Origin: Draconibacterium orientale
Lineage (GTDB): Bacteria; Bacteroidota; Bacteroidia; Bacteroidales; Prolixibacteraceae
Assembly (NCBI RefSeq): GCF_000626635.1
Contig: NZ_CP007451.1
Coordinates: 2,418,001 to 2,482,000 of the forward strand
Length of the DNA stretch: 64,000 nucleotides
Direction of reading: 5' to 3'
This document shows positions 28,346 to 43,081 of this stretch, in pieces (positions within the stretch are counted from its first letter, which is position 1; every line of letters begins with the position of its first letter). The position numbers and the translations under genes are program-made. The notes under the pieces were generated by a model. It saw only the letters and a list, made by a program, of their open reading frames with translations, did not search any database and had not been told where the DNA came from.

Positions 28346-28740
28346 GTTAGTGATATTTGAAATTTAAGGGTTCTTTACCCCTCTCCCTGTAGGGAGCTCC
28401 CCTCAGGAGGGGAGCCAGTTTTCGAACGGTGCTGCATTACAAAGTATCATCCCGCTGGTGCGAGCTTGAATCGCGTTCCGGCAGGGTGGCCGCCGCTGGT
28501 ACGATTTTGTAAATCGTGCCTCTGCCAGCAAGGCTGAAAAAGTTGCAACAGCATTTTTATATTAATGGCCCGCTGGTGCGAGCTTGTATCGCGTTCCGTT
28601 TTTGTAGCCCCGGACTTTTCTTTACAGGAGCTAATCGCATTCGTTGGCCGCAAAACAAAATAGCCCAACAACATTCTCTGGTTTCCAAAGTAAAAGGCGT
28701 GTTACATTTTTGTAATTTTAAATTGCATTAAACGTGGCTT
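28346..28740. repeat. Mosaic of short palindromic repeats upstream of the Pho locus
   Basis: Includes a copy (28409-28478) of the sequence at 24335, the second 83-bp repeat (28488-28570), and two more GGTGCGAGCTTG(A/T)ATCGCG hairpins. No gene is visible. Confidence 0.7.
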
Positions 28741-28776: not shown

Positions 28777-28834
28777 AATTAATCGAATTGTAATATTATT
28801 GTAATTCCGGTGTAATCGTGTTGCGTCACTTTTG
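28777..28834 (+). promoter_or_regulatory. Putative Pho box and promoter of the porin-pst operon
   Basis: In-phase 11-mers: AATTAATCGAA, TTGTAATATTA, TTGTAATTCCG, GTGTAATCGTG (28777-28820), then 6 nt and CACTTTTG (28827-28834) as the -7 box. No -33 element is needed if an activator binds the repeats. The start codon is 42 nt downstream. Same layout at 37532 and 43024. Confidence 0.72.
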
Positions 28835-29908: not shown

Positions 29909-30979
29909 ATGAAAAATTTAGCCTTACTGATTTTAACCGTATTTATTCTGGGAGCTTGCTCTAATTCGTCAAACAAACAAGGCGGAGAAAAAGCCGGAAC
30001 CTCGAAAGTGACTTTAACAGCTGCGGGAGCTACTTTCCCGATGCCCTATTACAATATGGTTTTTAAGAACTATACATCTGAGTTTGGTACACTGCTTACT
30101 TATGGCGGAATCGGTTCAGGCGGTGGTATCCGCAGTTTAACCGATAAGGTGGTTGACTTTGGTGCAACCGACGCTTATTTGAGCGACGATAAACTGGCAG
30201 AAATGCCTGCTGAAGTAGTTCATATTCCGACGGTATTGGGTGCTGTTGTTATTGCTTATAACCTTCCTGGTGTTGATGACCTCAAACTATCGAACGAATT
30301 GCTGGAGAAAATTTTCATGGGTGAAATTACCAACTGGAACGATCCGGCAATTAAAGCCAACAACGAAGGTTTGGCACTTCCTGATATGGAAATCACTTTC
30401 GTACATCGTTCGGATGGTAGTGGTACAACTTACATCTTCAGCGACTACATGACTAAAATTAGCCCGAAATGGGCTGATGCAATAGGAACAGGAAAATCGT
30501 TGCAATGGCCGGTTGGTATGGGCGCTAAAGGAAATCCAGGCGTTGCCGGTACCATTAGCCAAACCGAAGGAGCTATTGGTTACATTGGATCGGAATATGC
30601 TTTTGCGCAGAAAATCCAAACTGCATTGGTACAAAACAGCGCAGGCAATTACATCGAGCCTTCAATTGCATCGGTTAGTGCTGCTGCAAAAGGTGAGATT
30701 CCTGCTGATACCCGCATCATGCTTACAAATTCTGCCGATCCTGAATCATACCCGATCAGCGGATTTACCTGGATCATTCTTTACAAAGAGCAAAACTACG
30801 ATGGTCGCTCCAAAGATCAGGCGCTGGCAACAGTTACTTTCCTTGATTGGCTGGTAAGTGCCGATGCACAAGGTGATGCCGAAAAGGTACACTACGCACC
30901 GCTGCCGGATGCAGCTGCCGAAAAAGCCAAAGCAATTTTACGTTCGGTTACCTTCGGTGGGCAACCCTTGTTGAAATAA
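29909..30979 (+). CDS. pstS: Phosphate ABC transporter substrate-binding lipoprotein PstS
   Basis: 356 residues. The lipoprotein signal MKNLALLILTVFILGACSNSS has a lipobox LGAC. Phosphate-contact motifs are present: GAGATFPMPYY near the start, GIGSGGGIRSLTDKVVDFGATDA, and VHRSDGSGTTYIFSDYM. It captures orthophosphate at the outer face of the inner membrane for PstCAB. It lies 43 bp after the porin and 153 bp before pstC; a stem-loop in that gap may keep PstS expression above that of the membrane components. Confidence 0.97.
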   Translation: MKNLALLILTVFILGACSNSSNKQGGEKAGTSKVTLTAAGATFPMPYYNMVFKNYTSEFGTLLTYGGIGSGGGIRSLTDKVVDFGATDAYLSDDKLAEMPAEVVHIPTVLGAVVIAYNLPGVDDLKLSNELLEKIFMGEITNWNDPAIKANNEGLALPDMEITFVHRSDGSGTTYIFSDYMTKISPKWADAIGTGKSLQWPVGMGAKGNPGVAGTISQTEGAIGYIGSEYAFAQKIQTALVQNSAGNYIEPSIASVSAAAKGEIPADTRIMLTNSADPESYPISGFTWIILYKEQNYDGRSKDQALATVTFLDWLVSADAQGDAEKVHYAPLPDAAAEKAKAILRSVTFGGQPLLK

Positions 30980-31132: not shown

Positions 31133-32044
31133 ATGAATAATTCCACGGTAAAAAGTTTTAATAAGTCCCCCATTGGGGGATTTAGGGGGCTTTTTAACAG
31201 CGATAAAATAACAAAAGGCGTTCTCCTGCTTTCTTCGTTCGTAATACTTTTTGTAGCCGGAGGAATGATCTTTTCGTTGGTTGAAGGTGCCATTCCGGCA
31301 CTGAAAAGTTTTGGGCTGCGATTTATTTGGTCGAACAACTGGAACCCAACCGAAGGGAAAGAGAACTACGGAGCGCTTCCGTTTATTGCCGGAACAATCA
31401 TTACATCGGTAGCGGCGCTGCTTATCAGTTTGCCTTTATCATTTTCGGTTTCATTGTTTCTGGGCGAATATTACCGCGGAACCCGAATGGCAAAAATACT
31501 GGGTACTATGGTTGATTTGTTGGCCGGAATTCCTTCAATTGTTTACGGTTTGTGGGGTTTTTATGTGCTTCGCCCGCTGCTTATCGATTTGGGATTACCC
31601 AACCAGGGATTTGGAATTTTCACTGCCAGCATAATTCTGGCGATTATGATTATTCCTTACGCCACTTCGCTAAGTAACGAGATTATTACCATGGTGCCGA
31701 ACGAGCTGAAAGAAGCAGCTTACTCGCTTGGAGCTACCCGTTCGGAAGTGATCTTTAATGTGGTGGTACCATCAGCACGATCGGGAATTATCGCCGGTTA
31801 CATTCTGTCGTTTGGGCGTGCATTGGGCGAAACCATGGCCGTAACAATGCTCGTTGGTAACGCCAATATTGTCCCCGATGGATTTTTCGGTACCGGAAAT
31901 ACAATGGCTTCGGTAATTGCCAATCAGTTTGGCGAAGCCGATGGCTTGAAACTCAGCTCGCTGATTGCGATAGGTTTGTTGTTATTTCTGCTAACAGGTA
32001 TAATAAATGCCATTGGTAAGTTCATTATAAAACGAATGGGATAA
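31133..32044 (+). CDS. pstC: Phosphate ABC transporter permease PstC
   Basis: 303 residues with six membrane helices and the BPD permease loop ELKEAAYSLGATRSEVIFNVVVPSARSGI (EAA motif for contact with PstB). Residues 11-20 (KSPIGGFRGL) are read through a palindromic TCCCCCATTGGGGGA sequence that resembles a Bacteroidota intergenic repeat; no downstream Met precedes the first membrane helix, so this N-terminus is probably real and repeat-derived. PstC and PstA form the inner-membrane channel for phosphate. It is followed immediately by pstA (1-bp gap). Confidence 0.95.
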   Translation: MNNSTVKSFNKSPIGGFRGLFNSDKITKGVLLLSSFVILFVAGGMIFSLVEGAIPALKSFGLRFIWSNNWNPTEGKENYGALPFIAGTIITSVAALLISLPLSFSVSLFLGEYYRGTRMAKILGTMVDLLAGIPSIVYGLWGFYVLRPLLIDLGLPNQGFGIFTASIILAIMIIPYATSLSNEIITMVPNELKEAAYSLGATRSEVIFNVVVPSARSGIIAGYILSFGRALGETMAVTMLVGNANIVPDGFFGTGNTMASVIANQFGEADGLKLSSLIAIGLLLFLLTGIINAIGKFIIKRMG

Positions 32045-32045
32045 G

Positions 32046-32930
32046 ATGAATTCTGCAGCAAAAATAACCGCGGCCAACCTCAGCCGAAGAACTTTGAAAG
32101 ACAAGCTTTTCAAAGGACTGGTGCTCTTTTTATCGCTTATCACCATTTCGCCGATTGTACTGATTATTTACAAATTGGTGGAAAAGGGTTATCGTCAGAT
32201 CAGTTTGAATTTTATCATCAAAACGCCTCCAAATACTTTCGAGGCTATGACAGCTGTTAGCAATGGCGAGCTCATTCCCGGAGGTATTGCAAACGGTATT
32301 ACAGGTACCTTGTTAATGGTGGTTCTGGCGTCGGTTATTTCCATTCCGGTTGGTGTTATTACAGGCATTTACCTGTACGAGAATCCGGGAAAACCACTGG
32401 CAAACCTTACCCGAAACATTTCGGATATCTTGCAGGGTGTTCCTTCTATCGTACTCGGGCTTATTGCTTACATGTGGATTGTAAAACCCATAACCAGCGG
32501 CTTTTCGGCACTGGCAGGTAGTGTGTCCTTGTCCATTATGATGTTGCCAATGATTGTGCGCTCAACGGAGGAAACGCTGAAAATGATTCCTCAATCGATA
32601 AAAGAAGCAGCTGTTGCATTGGGTGTGCCGTATTACAAGGTAATTCTGCGTGTGCTTATCCCCACCGGATTTAGCGGTTTGCTAACTGGAATTCTGCTCG
32701 GTATCTCGCGTATACTCGGAGAAACCGCACCATTAATGCTAACAGCACTGGGCAGCTCGGTAATTAATTTAGACATTACCAAACCAACAAGTGCGATCCC
32801 GTTGTTAATCTGGGAGTTTTACAACGACCCGAATATGGTTGACCTGATTTGGAGCTCATCGTTATTACTGATGGGAATGGTGCTGACCCTAAACCTGGTA
32901 TCGAAACGAATTGCTGCCCGAACGAAATAG
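32046..32930 (+). CDS. pstA: Phosphate ABC transporter permease PstA
   Basis: 294 residues, six membrane helices. Its EAA loop is SIKEAAVALGVPYYKVILRVLIPTGFSGLLTG. SDILQGVPSIVLGLIAYMWIV is the typical PstA core. It pairs with PstC in the membrane. Spacing of 1 bp from pstC and 10 bp to the chosen pstB start indicates one transcript. Confidence 0.95.
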   Translation: MNSAAKITAANLSRRTLKDKLFKGLVLFLSLITISPIVLIIYKLVEKGYRQISLNFIIKTPPNTFEAMTAVSNGELIPGGIANGITGTLLMVVLASVISIPVGVITGIYLYENPGKPLANLTRNISDILQGVPSIVLGLIAYMWIVKPITSGFSALAGSVSLSIMMLPMIVRSTEETLKMIPQSIKEAAVALGVPYYKVILRVLIPTGFSGLLTGILLGISRILGETAPLMLTALGSSVINLDITKPTSAIPLLIWEFYNDPNMVDLIWSSSLLLMGMVLTLNLVSKRIAARTK

Positions 32931-32940
32931 TAAAAAACAA

Positions 32941-33723
32941 ATGAAGGAAGATAATCTAAATATCAAAGATCCTGTACTTTCAATTCGCAATCTATCGGTT
33001 GCGTACGATAAGGGGAGTTATGCTGTAAAGGACGTTTCGGCCGATATTAAACGAAACGCGGTAACAGCAATTATGGGCCCGTCGGGATGTGGAAAAAGTA
33101 CCATGTTGCGTGCCATTAACCGCATGCACGAATTGTACGAAAACATCGAAACAAAAGGATCGCTAATACTAAACGGAAAGGATATTACTGACATGCCAAC
33201 CATTCAATTACGTCGTATGGCCGGAATGGTATTTCAACGTCCGAATCCGTTTCCAACATTGAGCATTTACGACAATGTAATTGCCGGATATAAACTGAAC
33301 GGCATTCGTTTAAAGAAAAAAGAACGCGACGATGTGGTTGAACGCTCGTTGCGCGATGTTACCCTTTGGGACGAGGTTAAAGATACATTGCATAAAAAAG
33401 GAACATTCCTTTCAGGTGGTCAGCAACAACGACTTTGTATTGCGAGGGCGCTGGCTTTTGATCCGGAAGTGATTTTGCTTGATGAACCAACCTCGGCACT
33501 CGATCCTGTAGCGACTTCAAAAATTGAAGATCTGCTGGTAAAGTTGAAAGAGAATTATTCGATACTGATGGTGACACATAACATGTCGCAGGCAGCGCGA
33601 ATCTCTGATTATTCAATGTTTATGTACCTTGGCGAATTGGTAGAATACGGTAAAACAAAAGATATGTTTACCAACCCAAAAGACCGTCGTACAGAGGAAT
33701 ACCTGACCGGAAAATTCGGTTAA
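32941..33723 (+). CDS. pstB: Phosphate ABC transporter ATP-binding protein PstB
   Basis: 260 residues from the ATG at 32941; an in-frame ATG at 32911 would overlap pstA and add 10 non-conserved residues. Walker A is MGPSGCGKSTML, the signature LSGGQQQRLCIARALA, Walker B VILLDEPTSALDP, switch His in VTHNMSQAARISDY, all diagnostic of PstB. It powers phosphate import through PstCA. The N-terminus IKDPVLSIRNLSVAYDKGSYAVKDVS matches the family. Confidence 0.97.
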   Translation: MKEDNLNIKDPVLSIRNLSVAYDKGSYAVKDVSADIKRNAVTAIMGPSGCGKSTMLRAINRMHELYENIETKGSLILNGKDITDMPTIQLRRMAGMVFQRPNPFPTLSIYDNVIAGYKLNGIRLKKKERDDVVERSLRDVTLWDEVKDTLHKKGTFLSGGQQQRLCIARALAFDPEVILLDEPTSALDPVATSKIEDLLVKLKENYSILMVTHNMSQAARISDYSMFMYLGELVEYGKTKDMFTNPKDRRTEEYLTGKFG

Positions 33724-33753: not shown

Positions 33754-34437
33754 ATGACTTTAAAGAAGGATGATGCCATAAAAGCGATAATGAGTGATTT
33801 TGAAGACTTCGCTAACCTCGTACTTCACCAGCTCGATTTATTGGAGACGCTCATTTCTACCGGCGAAACACAATTTCCAAAAGAACAAAGTAAGGAGTTG
33901 TACGACAACGAGAATAAGCTGGATAAATTGGAAGTTAAAATTAGCGACAAGATTATTAATACCATTACTTTATATCAGCCGGTAGCTTCCGATATCAGGA
34001 AAATTATGGCCTGTTATCGTATAATTATCAGTCTCGAGCGGGTTGGCGATATGGTAATTAATGTGCTGCGTTTTGTTGAAAGCATTAAAACTCCGAAAGT
34101 GTATACCGAACTTTCTGAAGTGGTTTCAAACATGCTTATTCAAAGTGCCAATATGGTAAACAAATCTTTACTGGCGTTTACCAACGACGATAAAGATTAT
34201 GCAATCTGGACCATTAAAAACGATGCAGTAGTTGATGAGCTCAACAGAAAGATGTTGAAGAAGGCCATCAAAAAAAGCACATCTTCAAACGATGATAAAG
34301 AACTTCTGCTAAGTTTTATTAATATGAATAGTATGGTTACAACCATCGAACGTATTGCCGATCAGGCCACAAATATTGCCGAGGCTGCTATTTATTCCAT
34401 CGAAGGTAAGGATATACGACATAAAGATTTGAAGTAA
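33754..34437 (+). CDS. phoU: PhoU-family phosphate signalling regulator
   Basis: 227 residues of two three-helix PhoU repeats. Conserved motifs are ENKLDKLEVKISDKIINTITLYQPVASDIRKIMACYRIIISLERVGDMVINV and the second-repeat counterpart TTIERIADQATNIAEAAIYSIEGKDIRHK. The E/D-rich faces bind metal. It links PstSCAB transport state to the downstream kinase and restrains phosphate uptake. It sits between pstB and the two-component pair, the classical order. Confidence 0.95.
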   Translation: MTLKKDDAIKAIMSDFEDFANLVLHQLDLLETLISTGETQFPKEQSKELYDNENKLDKLEVKISDKIINTITLYQPVASDIRKIMACYRIIISLERVGDMVINVLRFVESIKTPKVYTELSEVVSNMLIQSANMVNKSLLAFTNDDKDYAIWTIKNDAVVDELNRKMLKKAIKKSTSSNDDKELLLSFINMNSMVTTIERIADQATNIAEAAIYSIEGKDIRHKDLK

Positions 34438-34503: not shown

Positions 34504-35187
34504 ATGGGATCAAATCCGAAAATATTAATTGTTGACGACGAAAAAGATTTATGTGAAATTTTGGAGTTCAACTTGTCAAGCGAAGGTTTCGAAACATCAG
34601 TGGCACATTCTGCCGAGCAGGCACTAAAATTACCATTGGAAGAATACGACCTGATTTTGCTTGATGTGATGATGGGCGAAATGTCGGGTTACAAAATGGC
34701 TGATAAGATAAGGAGGGAATTACAGCTTACTCTGCCTATTATTTTTATGACTGCCAAAACCGCAGAAAACGATATCCTTACAGGATTTAATGTTGGTGGA
34801 GACGACTATATTTCAAAACCGTTTTCAATTAAAGAAATGGTGGCACGTATTAAAGCTGTGCTGAAACGTGGCCGACAAAACGTAAGGCAAACCAAGGTGT
34901 ACAAAGTTGAAGGTCTTGAGGTGGATGCAAACAGTAAAATGGTACAGATTGACGACGAGCCAATTAGTCTTACCCGAAAAGAATTTGAAATTATTACCCT
35001 TTTGCTAAAACACCAGGGGCAATACATTGGCCGAAACGAAATACTCGACAGGGTGTGGAACGACGATGTTATTGTTACCGAGCGAAACGTGGATGTTAAT
35101 ATTGCACGACTCAGAAAAAAGATTGGCAAATACGGTCAATATATTCAAGGAAAATCAGGATATGGTTACGCTTTTAAGCAGCCATAA
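34504..35187 (+). CDS. phoB: PhoB-like OmpR-family response regulator
   Basis: 227 residues. Receiver domain: acidic pair Asp11-Asp12, phospho-acceptor Asp54 (LILLDVMMGEMSG), Thr83 and Lys105 (ISKPF). The C-terminal OmpR/PhoB winged helix (about 128-227) has LTRKEFEIITLLLKH, GRNEILDRVWND and VDVNIARLRKKIGKYGQYIQGKSGYGYAF. It follows phoU and precedes the sensor kinase, so it is the likely PhoB. PhoB-type regulators bind 11-bp direct repeats, matching those found in three promoters here. The symbol is assigned from context. Confidence 0.88.
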   Translation: MGSNPKILIVDDEKDLCEILEFNLSSEGFETSVAHSAEQALKLPLEEYDLILLDVMMGEMSGYKMADKIRRELQLTLPIIFMTAKTAENDILTGFNVGGDDYISKPFSIKEMVARIKAVLKRGRQNVRQTKVYKVEGLEVDANSKMVQIDDEPISLTRKEFEIITLLLKHQGQYIGRNEILDRVWNDDVIVTERNVDVNIARLRKKIGKYGQYIQGKSGYGYAFKQP

Positions 35188-35232: not shown

Positions 35233-37005
35233 GTGCCGATTCAGCAAACATTCAGACGGAAAATCTTTTACTACTTTATAGCGGTATTTTTACTGTTTAC
35301 AGTAGCCATATTGTTGTTTCAGTTGCAGCGCGAGAAAAATTACAAAACATCGCAGCTCGAAAATACATTGCGTAATGTTACCGAAGTTGCCCACAACTAC
35401 ATCGAACATTACAACTTGATGGAAACGCAAAACTTTAGCAGTGCAGATATTTTAAAAGATTTGATACCGCAAGCCAATATTCGCTTAACCATTATCGACA
35501 AGCGGGGAATTGTTTTGTACGACAGTTTTGTGTACGAATATCAAAAAATGGAAAACCATTTCGAGCGTCCCGAAGTGCAAAAAGCATTGTTCGGGGGCGA
35601 GGGAGCCAATATTCGTCACTCGGAAACCACCGGTACCGACTTCTATTATTATGCCCAAAATTTCGACGATTATTTTGTGCGTGCTGCCATGGTTTACGAT
35701 ATTAACGTAGAGAATTTCCTGAAAGCCGAGCGTTTGTTCATCTTCTTTATTATCGCCATTTTCCTGGTAATCTGGCTGGTGATTAATGAGCTTACAAAAC
35801 GTCTTTCCATATCAATTACCAAGTTGAAAGACTTTGCTATAAAAGCCGGAAAGAATGAATCCATAAACGAAGAAGAGGGTAAATTCCCCGACAATGAACT
35901 GGGTGAAATTGGTTCGCAAATAGTAAAAATCTACAATAATTTGCACGATGCAAATAACTCAATTGCGTTGGAAAAAGACCGCCTGGCTAATCACATGAAT
36001 ATTCTGAATGAAGGGATAGGATTTTTTACGCCACAAAAGGAGAAGATGCTGGTGAACAGTAACTTCATACAGTTTGTGAGTATCATTTCTGATACTATGA
36101 CTATCTCTGCAGAAAACTTCTTTACTATTCCGGAATTTGAAAAAATCAACAAATTCCTGGAAAAATACTTACACAAAGACACAGAGTTCCAGAGTAACGA
36201 ACTGCCGCAAATTGAGTTTACTATACAAAAAGACGACAGTTATTTCAAGCTGATGTGCATTGTGTTTGCCGATAAGAGTTTTGAGATTCTGATTACCGAT
36301 GTTACCAAACCGGAAAAACGACGCCTGCTAAAACAGCAGTTGACATCAAATATTGCACACGAGTTAAAAACACCGCTGGCTTCAATAAAAGGATACATCG
36401 AAACATTGATGTCGAATCCGAATATCGACAAGGAGAAACAGCAGTACTTTATCGAAAGAGCAAGTAAACAAGCCGAACGCTTAAATCTGCTTTTAAACGA
36501 CATTTCGTTGCTGAATAACATCGAGGATGCAGGGGAATTGTTCGAGATTAAGCCGGTGCACATCAAAAATATTGTGTCTGACGTGGTTGAGAACCTGGAA
36601 AGCAGAATGGCTGCCAAAAACATAAAGTGTAAACTGGATATTGATAAAGATGTGGTTGTAAACGGAAACGACTCGCTGCTTTCGTCCGTATTCCAAAACT
36701 TGTTGGAGAACTCGATAAATTATGCCGGAGAGGATATAAAAATAGAGATTCGGAATTACCTGGAGGATACCAAATTCCATTATTTCAGTTATTCTGATAA
36801 CGGCAGGGGAATTCCTGAAGAACACCTTAACCGTATTTTTGAACGTTTCTACCGCATTGATTCAGGACGTACCCGCGAACTAGGCGGAACAGGCCTGGGA
36901 CTGTCGATTGTTAGAAACGCCATCCAGTTGCATAAAGGAAATATCTCGGCCCGCAATAAACCTGATGGAGGTGTCGAGTTCCTGTTCTCGCTGGCAAAAC
37001 AGTAA
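35233..37005 (+). CDS. phoR: Membrane sensor histidine kinase (PhoR-like)
   Basis: 590 residues starting at GTG. Two membrane helices (about 11-32 and 168-188) enclose a periplasmic sensor region, unlike the short extracytoplasmic loop of E. coli PhoR. A HAMP-like linker and a PAS-like region (about 240-355) precede the HisKA box SNIAHELKTPLASIKGYIETL, His at about 376. The ATPase has N-box FQNLLENSINYA, G1 YSDNGRGIPEEHLNRIFERFYR and G2 GGTGLGLSIVRN. It phosphorylates the adjacent regulator. Assignment to phosphate sensing rests on gene order. Confidence 0.88.
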   Translation: MPIQQTFRRKIFYYFIAVFLLFTVAILLFQLQREKNYKTSQLENTLRNVTEVAHNYIEHYNLMETQNFSSADILKDLIPQANIRLTIIDKRGIVLYDSFVYEYQKMENHFERPEVQKALFGGEGANIRHSETTGTDFYYYAQNFDDYFVRAAMVYDINVENFLKAERLFIFFIIAIFLVIWLVINELTKRLSISITKLKDFAIKAGKNESINEEEGKFPDNELGEIGSQIVKIYNNLHDANNSIALEKDRLANHMNILNEGIGFFTPQKEKMLVNSNFIQFVSIISDTMTISAENFFTIPEFEKINKFLEKYLHKDTEFQSNELPQIEFTIQKDDSYFKLMCIVFADKSFEILITDVTKPEKRRLLKQQLTSNIAHELKTPLASIKGYIETLMSNPNIDKEKQQYFIERASKQAERLNLLLNDISLLNNIEDAGELFEIKPVHIKNIVSDVVENLESRMAAKNIKCKLDIDKDVVVNGNDSLLSSVFQNLLENSINYAGEDIKIEIRNYLEDTKFHYFSYSDNGRGIPEEHLNRIFERFYRIDSGRTRELGGTGLGLSIVRNAIQLHKGNISARNKPDGGVEFLFSLAKQ

Positions 37006-37403: not shown

Positions 37404-37531
37404 TACCCCCGGACGAAAATGAAATAGAGCTTGTGTAGAGAGGGTAAATCAGTACAAGGATTAAGATTCGAAATCACTTATTGCAATAACATTTCACCAT
37501 TCCCCAGATAATTACAAAACCATTAAAACAA

Positions 37532-37589
37532 TGTAATACAAGTTTAAATAGTCTTTAATTTGCCTGTAACATATATCGGGTTGCTTTGC
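37532..37589 (+). promoter_or_regulatory. Putative Pho box and promoter of the TonB-dependent receptor
   Basis: In-phase 11-mers ATGTAATACAA, GTTTAAATAGT, CTTTAATTTGC, CTGTAACATAT (37532-37575), then exactly 6 nt and TTGCTTTG (37582-37589). The leader to the ATG at 37640 is about 45 nt. Confidence 0.65.
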
Positions 37590-40417: not shown

Positions 40418-42394
40418 ATGAAAAAATTAACAATCAAATTTTTAAGTCTTGCTTTATTAGCAACAGCAGTTTTTATAAGCTGCGATGACGATGATCCTAT
40501 TACACCAACGCTTACTGTTGTTGAAAAACTCGACAATGGTATTATGGAAGGAACCCTTGAAGAGAATTACACGCTTAGCGCAGGAATGTCGTACAACCTG
40601 AGTAGTTCTTTTATTGTAGCCGATGGTGCAACACTTACTATTCCTGCCGGAACAAACATTATTGCCGAAGCAGGTGGTACCGATGTTTACCTTGCGGTAT
40701 TAATGGGTGGTAAAATTGAAATCAACGGTACTGCAAGCAGCCCTGTTGTAATGTCTTCGCCCAATGCCAATCCCGGCGATTGGGGTGGTTTAACCATCTG
40801 TGGTAAAGCTACTACTACTGCCGGAGCGAATTCAGAAGCTGAAGTGGGTGGTTTTATCTATGGTGGCGATGATGATACCGATAATTCAGGATCGGTTACG
40901 TACCTGGTTATTAAAGGAACAGGTGCACAAATCAACGAAGAATCGCAATACAACGGTGTTTCTTGTTATGCATTGGGTTCGGGAACAACGCTGAGTAACA
41001 TCGCGGTAATCAACGGATCGGATGATGGTATCGAGTTTTTTGGCGGAACAGTTTCGGTTACTAACATCTTTTTGCAGAATAACGAAGACGATGCTATCGA
41101 CTGGACTGAAGGTTGGAGCGGAACAGTTAACAACGCCTATGTTGAGCATACTATCGAAGGTTTTTCAACTGTAATTGAAGGCGATAAAGACAATAACAAT
41201 CCTAAAATTAACAACCTGACAGCGGTTTCTACAACCGGTGGTACTGCATTGCAGTTCAAAAAAGAATCAGGAATGACTATCACCGGCTTGTCGTTGAGCG
41301 GTTATTCAGTATCTATCGATATGAAAGACGATGGCCCCTTGGCTAACGTAATTATCGATGGCGAAGAGGCAGACCCTACAAAAAGTTACAATGCTCCTGC
41401 AACGGTTGATCCAAGTGAGTGGACATGGATTGACGCAGAACTGGCAGAGGTGGTAGAATTGAGTGGAAATGTTGACTCGGATGTTACACTTGATGCCAGT
41501 AAAACTTACCGTTTAACCGGTTCGTACATTGTTCAGGATGGTGCTTCCCTGACTATTCCTGCGGGAACAAAAATTCACGCTGATAACGGTGGTACTGATG
41601 TTTACATCGCAGTATTGATGGGTGGTCAGATCTTTATTAACGGAGAAAATGATAATCCTGTTGTAATTGCATCAGACTTAAGCCAGCCGGGCGACTGGGG
41701 AGGTTTAACAATTTGTGGTAAAGCAACAACTACTGCCGGCGAAAATGCAGAAGCTGAAGTTGGTGGATTTATTTACGGTGGTACTGATGATTCGGACAAT
41801 TCGGGATCAGTTACTAACCTTGTAATTCGCGGAACAGGTGCACAAATCAACGAAGAATCACAGTATAACGGTGTATCATTGTATTCTGTTGGATCAGTTA
41901 CTACTTTGGAAAACCTTGCAATTTTCGACGGATCTGATGATGGCATCGAATTCTTTGGAGGCACTGCATCAGTTACAAATATTTATGTTGAAAACTGCGA
42001 AGACGATGCGATCGACTGGACTGAAGGTTGGAGCGGAGGAATTACCAATACTTATGTATCGCATACTATCGCTGGTTTCTCAACGGTTTTCGAAGGCGAT
42101 AAAGACAACAATAATCCCGTATTTACCAATGTAACGGCTATTTCAACTGTTGACGGAACAGGGTTGCAGTTCAAAAAAGAATCGGGAGCTACAATTACCA
42201 ACTTGCATATGGAAGGTTATGCAATCGACCTGGATATGAAAGACGGAGGTGCTTTATCGAACGTACAAATTGATGGCGCCAATCCAGACGTTACCTTAAT
42301 GGATGGCGAAACCAGCAAATACACCCTGAATTCAGGTAAAGATGCTGATGCCATCGACATTTCAGGCTGGACATGGATTAACGCTGAGTTATAG
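40418..42394 (+). CDS. Surface lipoprotein with two tandem beta-helix domains
   Basis: 658 residues. Lipoprotein signal MKKLTIKFLSLALLATAVFISCDDDD. The rest is an internal duplication: residues about 37-330 and 345-655 repeat the same blocks, including DWGGLTICGKATTTAG, EAEVGGFIYGG, GTGAQINEESQYNGVS and DDAIDWTEGWSG, each half a right-handed parallel beta-helix with many Asp/Asn turns suited to calcium. It lies 36 bp after the TonB receptor, as SusD-like or accessory lipoproteins do, but it is not SusD-like. A ligand-capture role, possibly for a phosphorylated polymer, is inferred from the neighbourhood only. Confidence 0.85.
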   Translation: MKKLTIKFLSLALLATAVFISCDDDDPITPTLTVVEKLDNGIMEGTLEENYTLSAGMSYNLSSSFIVADGATLTIPAGTNIIAEAGGTDVYLAVLMGGKIEINGTASSPVVMSSPNANPGDWGGLTICGKATTTAGANSEAEVGGFIYGGDDDTDNSGSVTYLVIKGTGAQINEESQYNGVSCYALGSGTTLSNIAVINGSDDGIEFFGGTVSVTNIFLQNNEDDAIDWTEGWSGTVNNAYVEHTIEGFSTVIEGDKDNNNPKINNLTAVSTTGGTALQFKKESGMTITGLSLSGYSVSIDMKDDGPLANVIIDGEEADPTKSYNAPATVDPSEWTWIDAELAEVVELSGNVDSDVTLDASKTYRLTGSYIVQDGASLTIPAGTKIHADNGGTDVYIAVLMGGQIFINGENDNPVVIASDLSQPGDWGGLTICGKATTTAGENAEAEVGGFIYGGTDDSDNSGSVTNLVIRGTGAQINEESQYNGVSLYSVGSVTTLENLAIFDGSDDGIEFFGGTASVTNIYVENCEDDAIDWTEGWSGGITNTYVSHTIAGFSTVFEGDKDNNNPVFTNVTAISTVDGTGLQFKKESGATITNLHMEGYAIDLDMKDGGALSNVQIDGANPDVTLMDGETSKYTLNSGKDADAIDISGWTWINAEL

Positions 42395-42538: not shown

Positions 42539-42997
42539 ATGAAGAAATTATTGGTTTTAGTTGGATTTTTGGCTTTGATAACCACTGCATCGAAAGCACA
42601 AAAAATTGAAGAAATTGATGGAATTTATTACAAGAATTCCAAAAAGTACACCGGAACTTACCAGGGGTATTACGACGATAATACGTTGCAAAGCGAGGTG
42701 AAAATAAAGAATGGCGAAAAACACGGAAAAGCAACCATTTATTTTAAAAACGGGCATGTTAACGAAATACGTTCGTACAAACACAACCAGATGCACGGCA
42801 AGTGGGTGATGTATAACGAGCACGGAATTAAGGTGTCGGTTGCACGGTACAAAAACGGCAAAAAACATGGTAAATGGATTATTTGGAACGACTACGGAAA
42901 TTTATTGTATGAACTGGAATATGATAATGGAGAAAAAAACGGAGTCTGGAAGAAATACGACGAGCAGGGAAACCTGATAAGCGAACGAAAATATTAA
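42539..42997 (+). CDS. Secreted MORN-variant (YwqK-like) repeat protein
   Basis: 152 residues. Signal peptide MKKLLVLVGFLALITTASKAQ. Five or six MORN_2-type units follow, each with a G-x-W/x-x-Y-x-x-x-G pattern: KHGKATIYFKNGHVNE, MHGKWVMYNEHGIKVS, KHGKWIIWNDYGNLLY, KNGVWKKYDEQGNLIS. These repeats form short beta-hairpins; database names call such proteins antitoxin YwqK family, but no toxin gene is next to it and no such role should be assumed. It starts 16 bp after the upstream terminator. Confidence 0.85.
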   Translation: MKKLLVLVGFLALITTASKAQKIEEIDGIYYKNSKKYTGTYQGYYDDNTLQSEVKIKNGEKHGKATIYFKNGHVNEIRSYKHNQMHGKWVMYNEHGIKVSVARYKNGKKHGKWIIWNDYGNLLYELEYDNGEKNGVWKKYDEQGNLISERKY

Positions 42998-43023: not shown

Positions 43024-43081
43024 ATTTAATTAAACTGTAATCGTAGTGTAACCTCGCCGTAATTGTCATCCTGTATTTTTG
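43024..43081 (+). promoter_or_regulatory. Putative Pho box and promoter of the small CarboxypepD-like gene
   Basis: In-phase 11-mers ATTTAATTAAA, CTGTAATCGTA, GTGTAACCTCG, CCGTAATTGTC (43024-43067), then exactly 6 nt and TATTTTTG (43074-43081), a perfect TAnnTTTG. ATG 25 nt downstream. Confidence 0.72.

Follow-up and report, generated by a model that had tools for sequence, protein, structure and literature searches.

What controls the phosphate genes of Draconibacterium orientale, and what are the phased 11-bp repeats found upstream of three of its promoters? A preliminary description of the 64,000-nucleotide stretch of DNA analysed here, hereafter the window, had reported four in-phase 11-mers at these promoters and proposed that they form a Pho box. 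The four in-phase 11-mers were found again at P1, P2 and P3 (Table 1), and exactly 6 nt separate the last of them from the −7 box in all three, as had been claimed. The start positions given for P1 and P3 were correct, whereas P2 starts at 37531 and not at 37532. The proposed unit type, nT(G/T)TAA, held for (G/T)TAA, which occupies unit positions 3 to 6 in all 12 units (the key base being G in eight and T in four), but a T at position 2 is present in just 10 of the 12. Promoters of Bacteroidota follow a −7/−33 consensus, which comprises a TAnnTTTG element at −7 and a spacing to the −33 element. The −7 boxes of P1–P3 are TAnnTTTG-like and end in TTTG, the copies at P1 and P2 being imperfect.

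Table 1. Candidate Pho boxes of the window and the genes located behind them (position 1 is the first nucleotide of the window).
Feature	Position	Strand	Composition or model match	Basis
Candidate Pho box P1	28777..28834	+	11-mers 28777-28820: AATTAATCGAA TTGTAATATTA TTGTAATTCCG GTGTAATCGTG; 6-nt gap TTGCGT; −7 box CACTTTTG 28827-28834	sequence
Porin-like outer-membrane protein, first gene after P1	28876..29865	+	itself without Pfam match; among 9 aligned family members, Porin_4 in 3 and BBP2 in 1	
pstS	29909..30979	+	TIGR00975 337.7 bits, cut-off 205	
pstC	31133..32044	+	TIGR02138 288.4 bits, cut-off 196.45	
pstA	32046..32930	+	TIGR00974 236.8 bits, cut-off 193.45	
pstB (ABC ATPase)	32911..33723	+	PF00005 and location between pstA and phoU	
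phoU	33754..34437	+	PF01895; TIGR02135 115.3 bits, under cut-off 130.25	
phoB, proposed reader of the boxes	34504..35187	+	NF053854 317.3 bits, cut-off 270; Arg at E. coli position 201	
phoR, sensor kinase	35233..37005	+	NF053855 665 bits, cut-off 500	
Candidate Pho box P2	37531..37588	+	11-mers 37531-37574: ATGTAATACAA GTTTAAATAGT CTTTAATTTGC CTGTAACATAT; 6-nt gap ATCGGG; −7 box TTGCTTTG 37581-37588	sequence
TonB-dependent receptor, first gene after P2	37640..40381	+	PF13715, PF07715, PF00593	
Weak pectate-lyase-type protein, after the TonB receptor	40418..42394	+	PF03211 E 7.6e-4, under cut-off	
MORN-repeat protein	42539..42997	+	PF07661	
Candidate Pho box P3	43024..43081	+	11-mers 43024-43067: ATTTAATTAAA CTGTAATCGTA GTGTAACCTCG CCGTAATTGTC; 6-nt gap ATCCTG; −7 box TATTTTTG 43074-43081	sequence
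120-aa CarboxypepD_reg-like protein, after P3	43107..43469	+	PF13715	

Arrays were searched for as four KTAA words with N7 between them, followed by N15 and TTTG. Exactly three perfect matches, namely P1, P2 and P3, were present in the 5,132,075-base genome. When up to three mismatches were allowed, the window contained four matches, one of which is a shifted copy of P3, whereas 100 shuffles averaged 0.24 and never reached four; the earlier view that chance is an unlikely source of the arrays is thus borne out. At the same tolerance, the whole genome gave 49 matches versus 42 for a reversed-pattern control, which is hardly an enrichment and indicates that only near-perfect arrays carry signal. 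Three units followed by TTTG, with up to two mismatches, were mostly background in this genome (35 matches versus 24 in the control), and three units alone without mismatch gave seven matches versus three, including P1, P3, the array of a PiT permease gene described below, and sites at 594373 and 2125048.

Three other sequence features were noted. A near-identical 56-base sequence (TTAATCTTGTGG...) occurs 12 times, on both strands, among the genomic matches with up to three mismatches (for example at C1:134917 and C1:628230) and is likely an insertion sequence family. Just upstream of P1, an intergenic sequence of the window (28450-28610; GCTGGTGCGAGCTTG..ATCGCGTTCCG) is present twice and has the look of an interspersed repeat. 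Between 25938 and 28074, five long overlapping ORFs of 608 to 694 aa lie on both strands, which suggests that the coding sequence is repetitive or skewed.

The genes behind the arrays include those of a Bacteroidota-type PhoB/PhoR pair, both proteins scoring above the curated cut-offs of their models (NF053854 and NF053855). The PhoB-like regulator announced in the preliminary description is therefore PhoB itself (317 bits for a cut-off of 270); with the Proteobacterial-type model TIGR02154, the same protein scored 199.7 bits, under the cut-off of 296.2. A search of solved structures with the family of the porin-like protein gave no match, and the name "porin" thus rests on the Porin_4 and BBP2 matches of some relatives. 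The protein encoded at 40418 is possibly similar to Fjoh_0546 (FII) of F. johnsoniae.

A second phosphate-signalling locus lies outside the window (G000:C1:1423864-1430906, corresponding to L049:5864-12906) and comprises PiT permeases in tandem (753 and 756 aa), a PhoR/PnpS-like kinase, and PAR, a PhoP-like paralogue of PhoB (G000:C1:1430229-1430897) that scored 217 bits with NF053854, below the cut-off of 270. Upstream of the PHO4/PiT permease gene encoding the 753-aa protein, an array GTAAT-GTAAT-GTAAC with a degenerate fourth unit is followed by CACCTTTG at the distance seen in P1–P3, and the PAR gene is preceded by a one-mismatch array of the TTAAY type. Inspection by eye revealed no clear in-phase array upstream of the gene for the 756-aa permease (L049:8542-10812).

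Absence of the repeats from orthologous pst promoters had been named beforehand as an observation that would speak against a Pho box. To locate these promoters, PstC (TIGR02138) was chosen as a handle because the PstS model TIGR00975 performed poorly (13 of 247 genomes); PstC was found in 81 of the 148 genomes of the order. The order sample consisted of 100 PstC upstream regions from 76 genomes. The own genome was excluded, as were the nine rows that scored lowest above the cut-off and all rows below it; four of the 100 regions had no gene call, and a usable gap was available for 89 operons. Pairs of (G/T)TAA(C/T) in 176 gaps of pst directons were concentrated at lags of 11, 22, 33, and 44 (72, 46, 35, and 19 pairs, compared with about 6, and between 2 and 13, at other lags), versus 7, 8, 4, and 2 pairs at these four lags in 147 control gaps. 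Strong arrays, defined by a score of at least 17 of 20 without use of the distance to TTTG, were present in 46 of the 176 pst gaps versus 9 of the 147 control gaps, and their number fell to 14 and 6 when the same 176 gaps were reverse-complemented or reversed, respectively. In 32 of these 46 arrays, TTTG follows the last KTAA at a distance of exactly 15, whereas 100 runs of dinucleotide shuffling gave on average 1.79 arrays and 0.01 at N15 (maxima of 5 and 1). The repeats are thus present at orthologous pst promoters in many genomes, with unchanged phase and spacing to the −7 element (39 of the 89 operons have a strong array), though not in all of them: in the other 50 operons of the order sample no array scored at least 17 of 20, so that many pst operons have a weaker or shifted box or none.

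A scan of titled records was also performed, and its best 80 of at least 593 stretches, representing 79 loci with a few from archaea or other phyla, were analysed. In these 79 loci, 77, 34, and 24 pairs were counted at lags of 11, 22, and 33. Thirteen loci lacked a gene or a gap, and 48 of the 66 usable ones had a strong array, with TTTG at 15 in 29 cases, at an in-phase distance of 26 in three, and at 37 in nine, the last group including Bacteroides. The titled-record and order sets overlap slightly, since two loci (L380 and L390) repeat order-set sites letter for letter. Upstream of pstC in a record titled Fibrobacteria and, by that title, outside Bacteroidota (L351), a weaker array (16/20) was seen, with no TTTG at the expected place.

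Matches to the pattern alone, irrespective of any gene, led to the same kind of loci. The strict pattern gave 11 matches (two from the own genome) in ten of the 247 genomes of the class versus none for the reversed pattern; with one mismatch, 93 matches in 55 of the 148 genomes of the order were found versus 22 in the control, ten of which came from one genome. Ten named genomes gave 17 one-mismatch matches, in eight of them, versus one control match. Three own sites and three overlapping shifted copies (G270:C5:97160, G351:C459:337 and 348) were dropped from the 93 order matches, and the remaining 87, together with nine class matches, formed a set of 96 foreign matches. Twenty-one of the 87 order matches lie at most 6 kb upstream, on the same strand, of one of the 100 PstC genes, where about 0.05 would be expected for an assumed mean genome of 3.6 Mb.

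Gene calls were simple longest-ORF calls, and a relative was defined by a phmmer E value of at most 1e-4 to one of ten queries. The first downstream gene was a relative of the pho-cluster genes, PitA or the two regulators in 48 of the 96 foreign matches, with eight relatives of the porin, seven each of PstS, the pectate-lyase-like protein and the TonB receptor, six of the CarboxypepD_reg protein, four each of PitA and PAR, three of the MORN protein, and two of PhoB. Because TonB receptors and CarboxypepD_reg proteins abound in the group concerned, matches to their genes weigh less than those to pstS, pitA or phoB. The first gene matched none of the ten queries in 38 of the 96 cases, and ten others had no gene call, so that up to half of the foreign matches are unassigned or due to chance. 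Pfam models found among the 86 first genes were PBP_like_2 (10), PHO4 (5), Porin_O_P (3), and PhoU_div (1), and these genes also include some without an evident phosphate link (glycoside hydrolases, a SulP permease, an efflux protein). The same relative test was applied to a small control of 14 own-genome loci with two- or three-mismatch matches, namely those with a downstream ORF among 17 of the 26 loci L013-L038 (copies of the repeated element and three loci of the PitA/PAR region being omitted), and was positive in none. The motif search in related genomes thus found the repeats before pst, porin and pit genes, in support of the Pho-box interpretation. SulP-type permease genes (PF00916) of three genomes, including Rufibacter and Sabulibacter, are also preceded by TTTAAT-type 11-bp arrays with the same spacing to TTTG (L056, L414, and L415); these arrays are possibly the sites of another regulator with the same architecture.

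The arrays share several properties with the PHO box of E. coli. Both are made of 11-bp direct repeats, which are seen in P1–P3 and as lag peaks across pst promoters; both lie upstream of pst, as part of a siting before phosphate-uptake or scavenging genes that applies to the window genes and to the 48 foreign matches mentioned above; and in both, the last unit is 6 nt from a −10-type element, as in all three promoters of the window, and probably takes the place of the upstream core element. E. coli pstS has CTGTCATAAAA CTGTCATATTC CTTACATATAA CTGTCACCTGT, then TTGTCC, then TATTTT, and thus the same number of units as P1–P3, four, whereas E. coli phoA has two (TTGTCACGGCC-GAGACT-TATAGT). We take TATTTT and TATAGT to be the −10 elements of pstS and phoA, respectively. 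Unlike the E. coli box, P1–P3 are coupled to the TAnnTTTG (−7) element of Bacteroidota. As had been pointed out in the preliminary description, the half-site also departs from the enterobacterial CTGTCAT: it is TGTAAY in Bacteroidota, one base apart from the TGTCAY of E. coli. Since the PHO-box consensus is reported to vary between species (PMC4415409), we regard TGTAAY as a variant feature and not as grounds for exclusion from the PHO boxes.

In E. coli PhoB, Arg201 is reported to bond a guanine, Thr194 and Val197 to touch thymines, and Arg219 to enter the minor groove (PMC3973317, PMC3264566). All 32 Bacteroidota PhoB sequences compared, that of D. orientale included, have Arg201 and Val197, and 30 have Thr194. 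The PhoB of the window has Asn at position 194, and Arg219 is not kept in Bacteroidota PhoB, two departures that count against a reading of the boxes by PhoB. TTTG was found at the −33 distance in just one of 32 sites, so that PhoB most likely replaces the −33 element.

From the arrays observed, the conservation of their phase and spacing, the nature of the genes that follow and the assignment of PhoB and PhoR, we consider it highly likely that P1–P3 are Bacteroidota-type Pho boxes read by PhoB, which would activate phosphate genes through the primary sigma factor. When phosphate is scarce, PhoR (35233) would phosphorylate PhoB (34504), which would then occupy the four 11-bp units (nTKTAAYnnnn) head to tail, along the same face of the double helix. 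Because 6 nt separate the end of the last unit from TAnnTTTG (−7) downstream, PhoB would sit at the place of the −33 element and recruit RNA polymerase carrying the primary sigma factor, presumably by touching sigma. P1 would thereby turn on porin-pstSCAB-phoU-phoBR, which may form one operon, P2 the TonB-dependent receptor and its neighbour, and P3 the CarboxypepD_reg protein; the PiT permease encoded elsewhere in the genome would be turned on likewise.

Observations in other Bacteroidota fit this proposal. Six in-phase units, with degenerate middle ones, precede pstC in B. timonensis and B. oleiciplenus, and the last of them ends 6 nt before TTTCTTTG. In these Bacteroides arrays (L330 and L332), the fifth of the six units reads GTCAC and resembles the E. 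coli half-site. The phoB genes of B. oleiciplenus, B. timonensis, and Mediterranea massiliensis (374 to 380 bits with NF053854) also have an array upstream, as does a PHO4 permease gene in Parabacteroides massiliensis. PhoB of B. fragilis (BF1576) is reported to bind a 512-bp pstC promoter fragment directly in a shift assay, and pstC induction to need PhoB, with trace expression in the mutant (PMC3547664); the words motif, consensus and repeat are absent from the main text of that report. Binding was reported for the pstC promoter of B. fragilis, whereas the arrays upstream of pstC were read in B. timonensis and B. oleiciplenus. In two Flavobacterium species, an array lies before a PhoU_div (DUF47) gene, and in one of them also before PstS-like and MauG-like genes; F. 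limnosediminis has an array at a MauG-like gene. The low-phosphate regulon of F. johnsoniae is reported to include a phosphate-repressed TonB receptor and a lipoprotein beside phoBR, as well as PlcP, glycosyltransferase and MauG-like genes (PMC8115612), the words promoter and motif having no occurrence in the main text. TonB-receptor and MauG-like genes are thus common to that regulon and to our data, the array being seen in F. limnosediminis.

It is improbable that PAR, instead of PhoB or together with it, is the main reader of the boxes. PAR is the second protein that the PhoB model found in the genome, shares much of the recognition helix with PhoB, and is itself encoded behind a TTAAY array; moreover, four of the 12 units of P1–P3 contain TTAA. 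However, the other eight units and the PiT array contain GTAA, the type of genomes having an NF053854 PhoB, PAR carries Lys at the position of the Arg201 that bonds guanine in E. coli PhoB, and it is PhoB that is encoded within the gene run of P1.

PhoB recognized by NF053854 was found in 46 of the 148 order genomes. The key position was G in 39 and T in 16 units at 14 sites of genomes with this PhoB, versus 12 G and 50 T at 18 sites of genomes without it; the difference held with one value per genome (Mann-Whitney p 1e-4, 12 versus 15 genomes) and gave p 4e-7 over all 87 order matches, among which matches within one genome are not independent. Residue 201 is Arg in 32 of 32 PhoB proteins and Lys in eight of eight PAR-type regulators, own copies included, and PAR genes lie directly behind an array in four of the 96 foreign matches. 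Since the key base tracks the presence of PhoB and residue 201 tracks the type of regulator, G or T in the box and Arg or Lys in the helix go together. These data suggest a pairing, new here, of GTAAY with PhoB and of TTAAY with the PhoP-like paralogue. Presence of the pattern was not significantly associated with that of an NF053854 PhoB (22 of 46 positive versus 33 of 102 negative genomes, Fisher p 0.098), which counts against PhoB as the reader; such a result would be expected if both regulators use arrays, those of the paralogue being of the TTAAY type. PhoP of Riemerella anatipestifer is reported to prefer TTTAACA, an ArcA-like motif (PMC9603813), which resembles, by the motif alone, the TTAAY box of genomes without an NF053854 PhoB; the passages of that paper examined here describe no phased array tied to a −7 box. 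We tentatively propose a two-letter Pho code, in which PhoB (Arg201) may read GTAAY and the PhoP-like paralogue (Lys201) TTAAY in arrays otherwise identical in architecture. Lineages might then run phosphate uptake on either regulator, genomes that encode the two, like that of D. orientale, could split the regulon, and Arg or Lys facing G or T would be the main discriminator.

A different response regulator of the OmpR family, acting on the same genes by coincidence, is even less probable. Eight matches to OmpR-type DNA-binding domains are present in the genome, and other proteins of the family are reported to bind direct 7-bp repeats with 4-bp spacers (PMC4832192), but in B. oleiciplenus, B. 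timonensis and Mediterranea an array stands in front of phoB, other genomes have arrays in front of pst, pit and porin genes, and pstC of B. fragilis is reported to need PhoB (PMC3547664). Chance, or A/T-rich curvature from phased A/T tracts upstream of strong promoters with no specific protein involved, is hardly credible: the A/T-richness of the units and the near-background counts of loosened patterns in the genome speak for it, but the reversed-pattern controls (0 versus 11 and 22 versus 93) and the lack of an 11-bp peak in control gaps argue against it, and the fixed distance to TTTG would be left unexplained.

We thus retain PhoB as the most probable reader of P1–P3. No published consensus for a Bacteroidota Pho box was found in a search of open-access papers; putative Pho boxes have been marked near plcP genes of marine bacteria (PMC4796936).

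In the gut, Bacteroidota are abundant, and in soil and water they contribute to the turnover of organic phosphorus. As the same repeat lies before phosphate-uptake genes in many other Bacteroidota, it is very probably a DNA switch for phosphate-starvation genes in gut and environmental members of the phylum. A defined box at a fixed position would make phosphate regulons predictable from sequence. The geometry is that of E. coli despite a different −7 element, which suggests that the replacement of the upstream promoter element by PhoB is more constrained than the DNA sequence it recognizes. Finally, the GTAAY/TTAAY split, together with Arg or Lys at one position of the helix, may represent a directly testable specificity switch.
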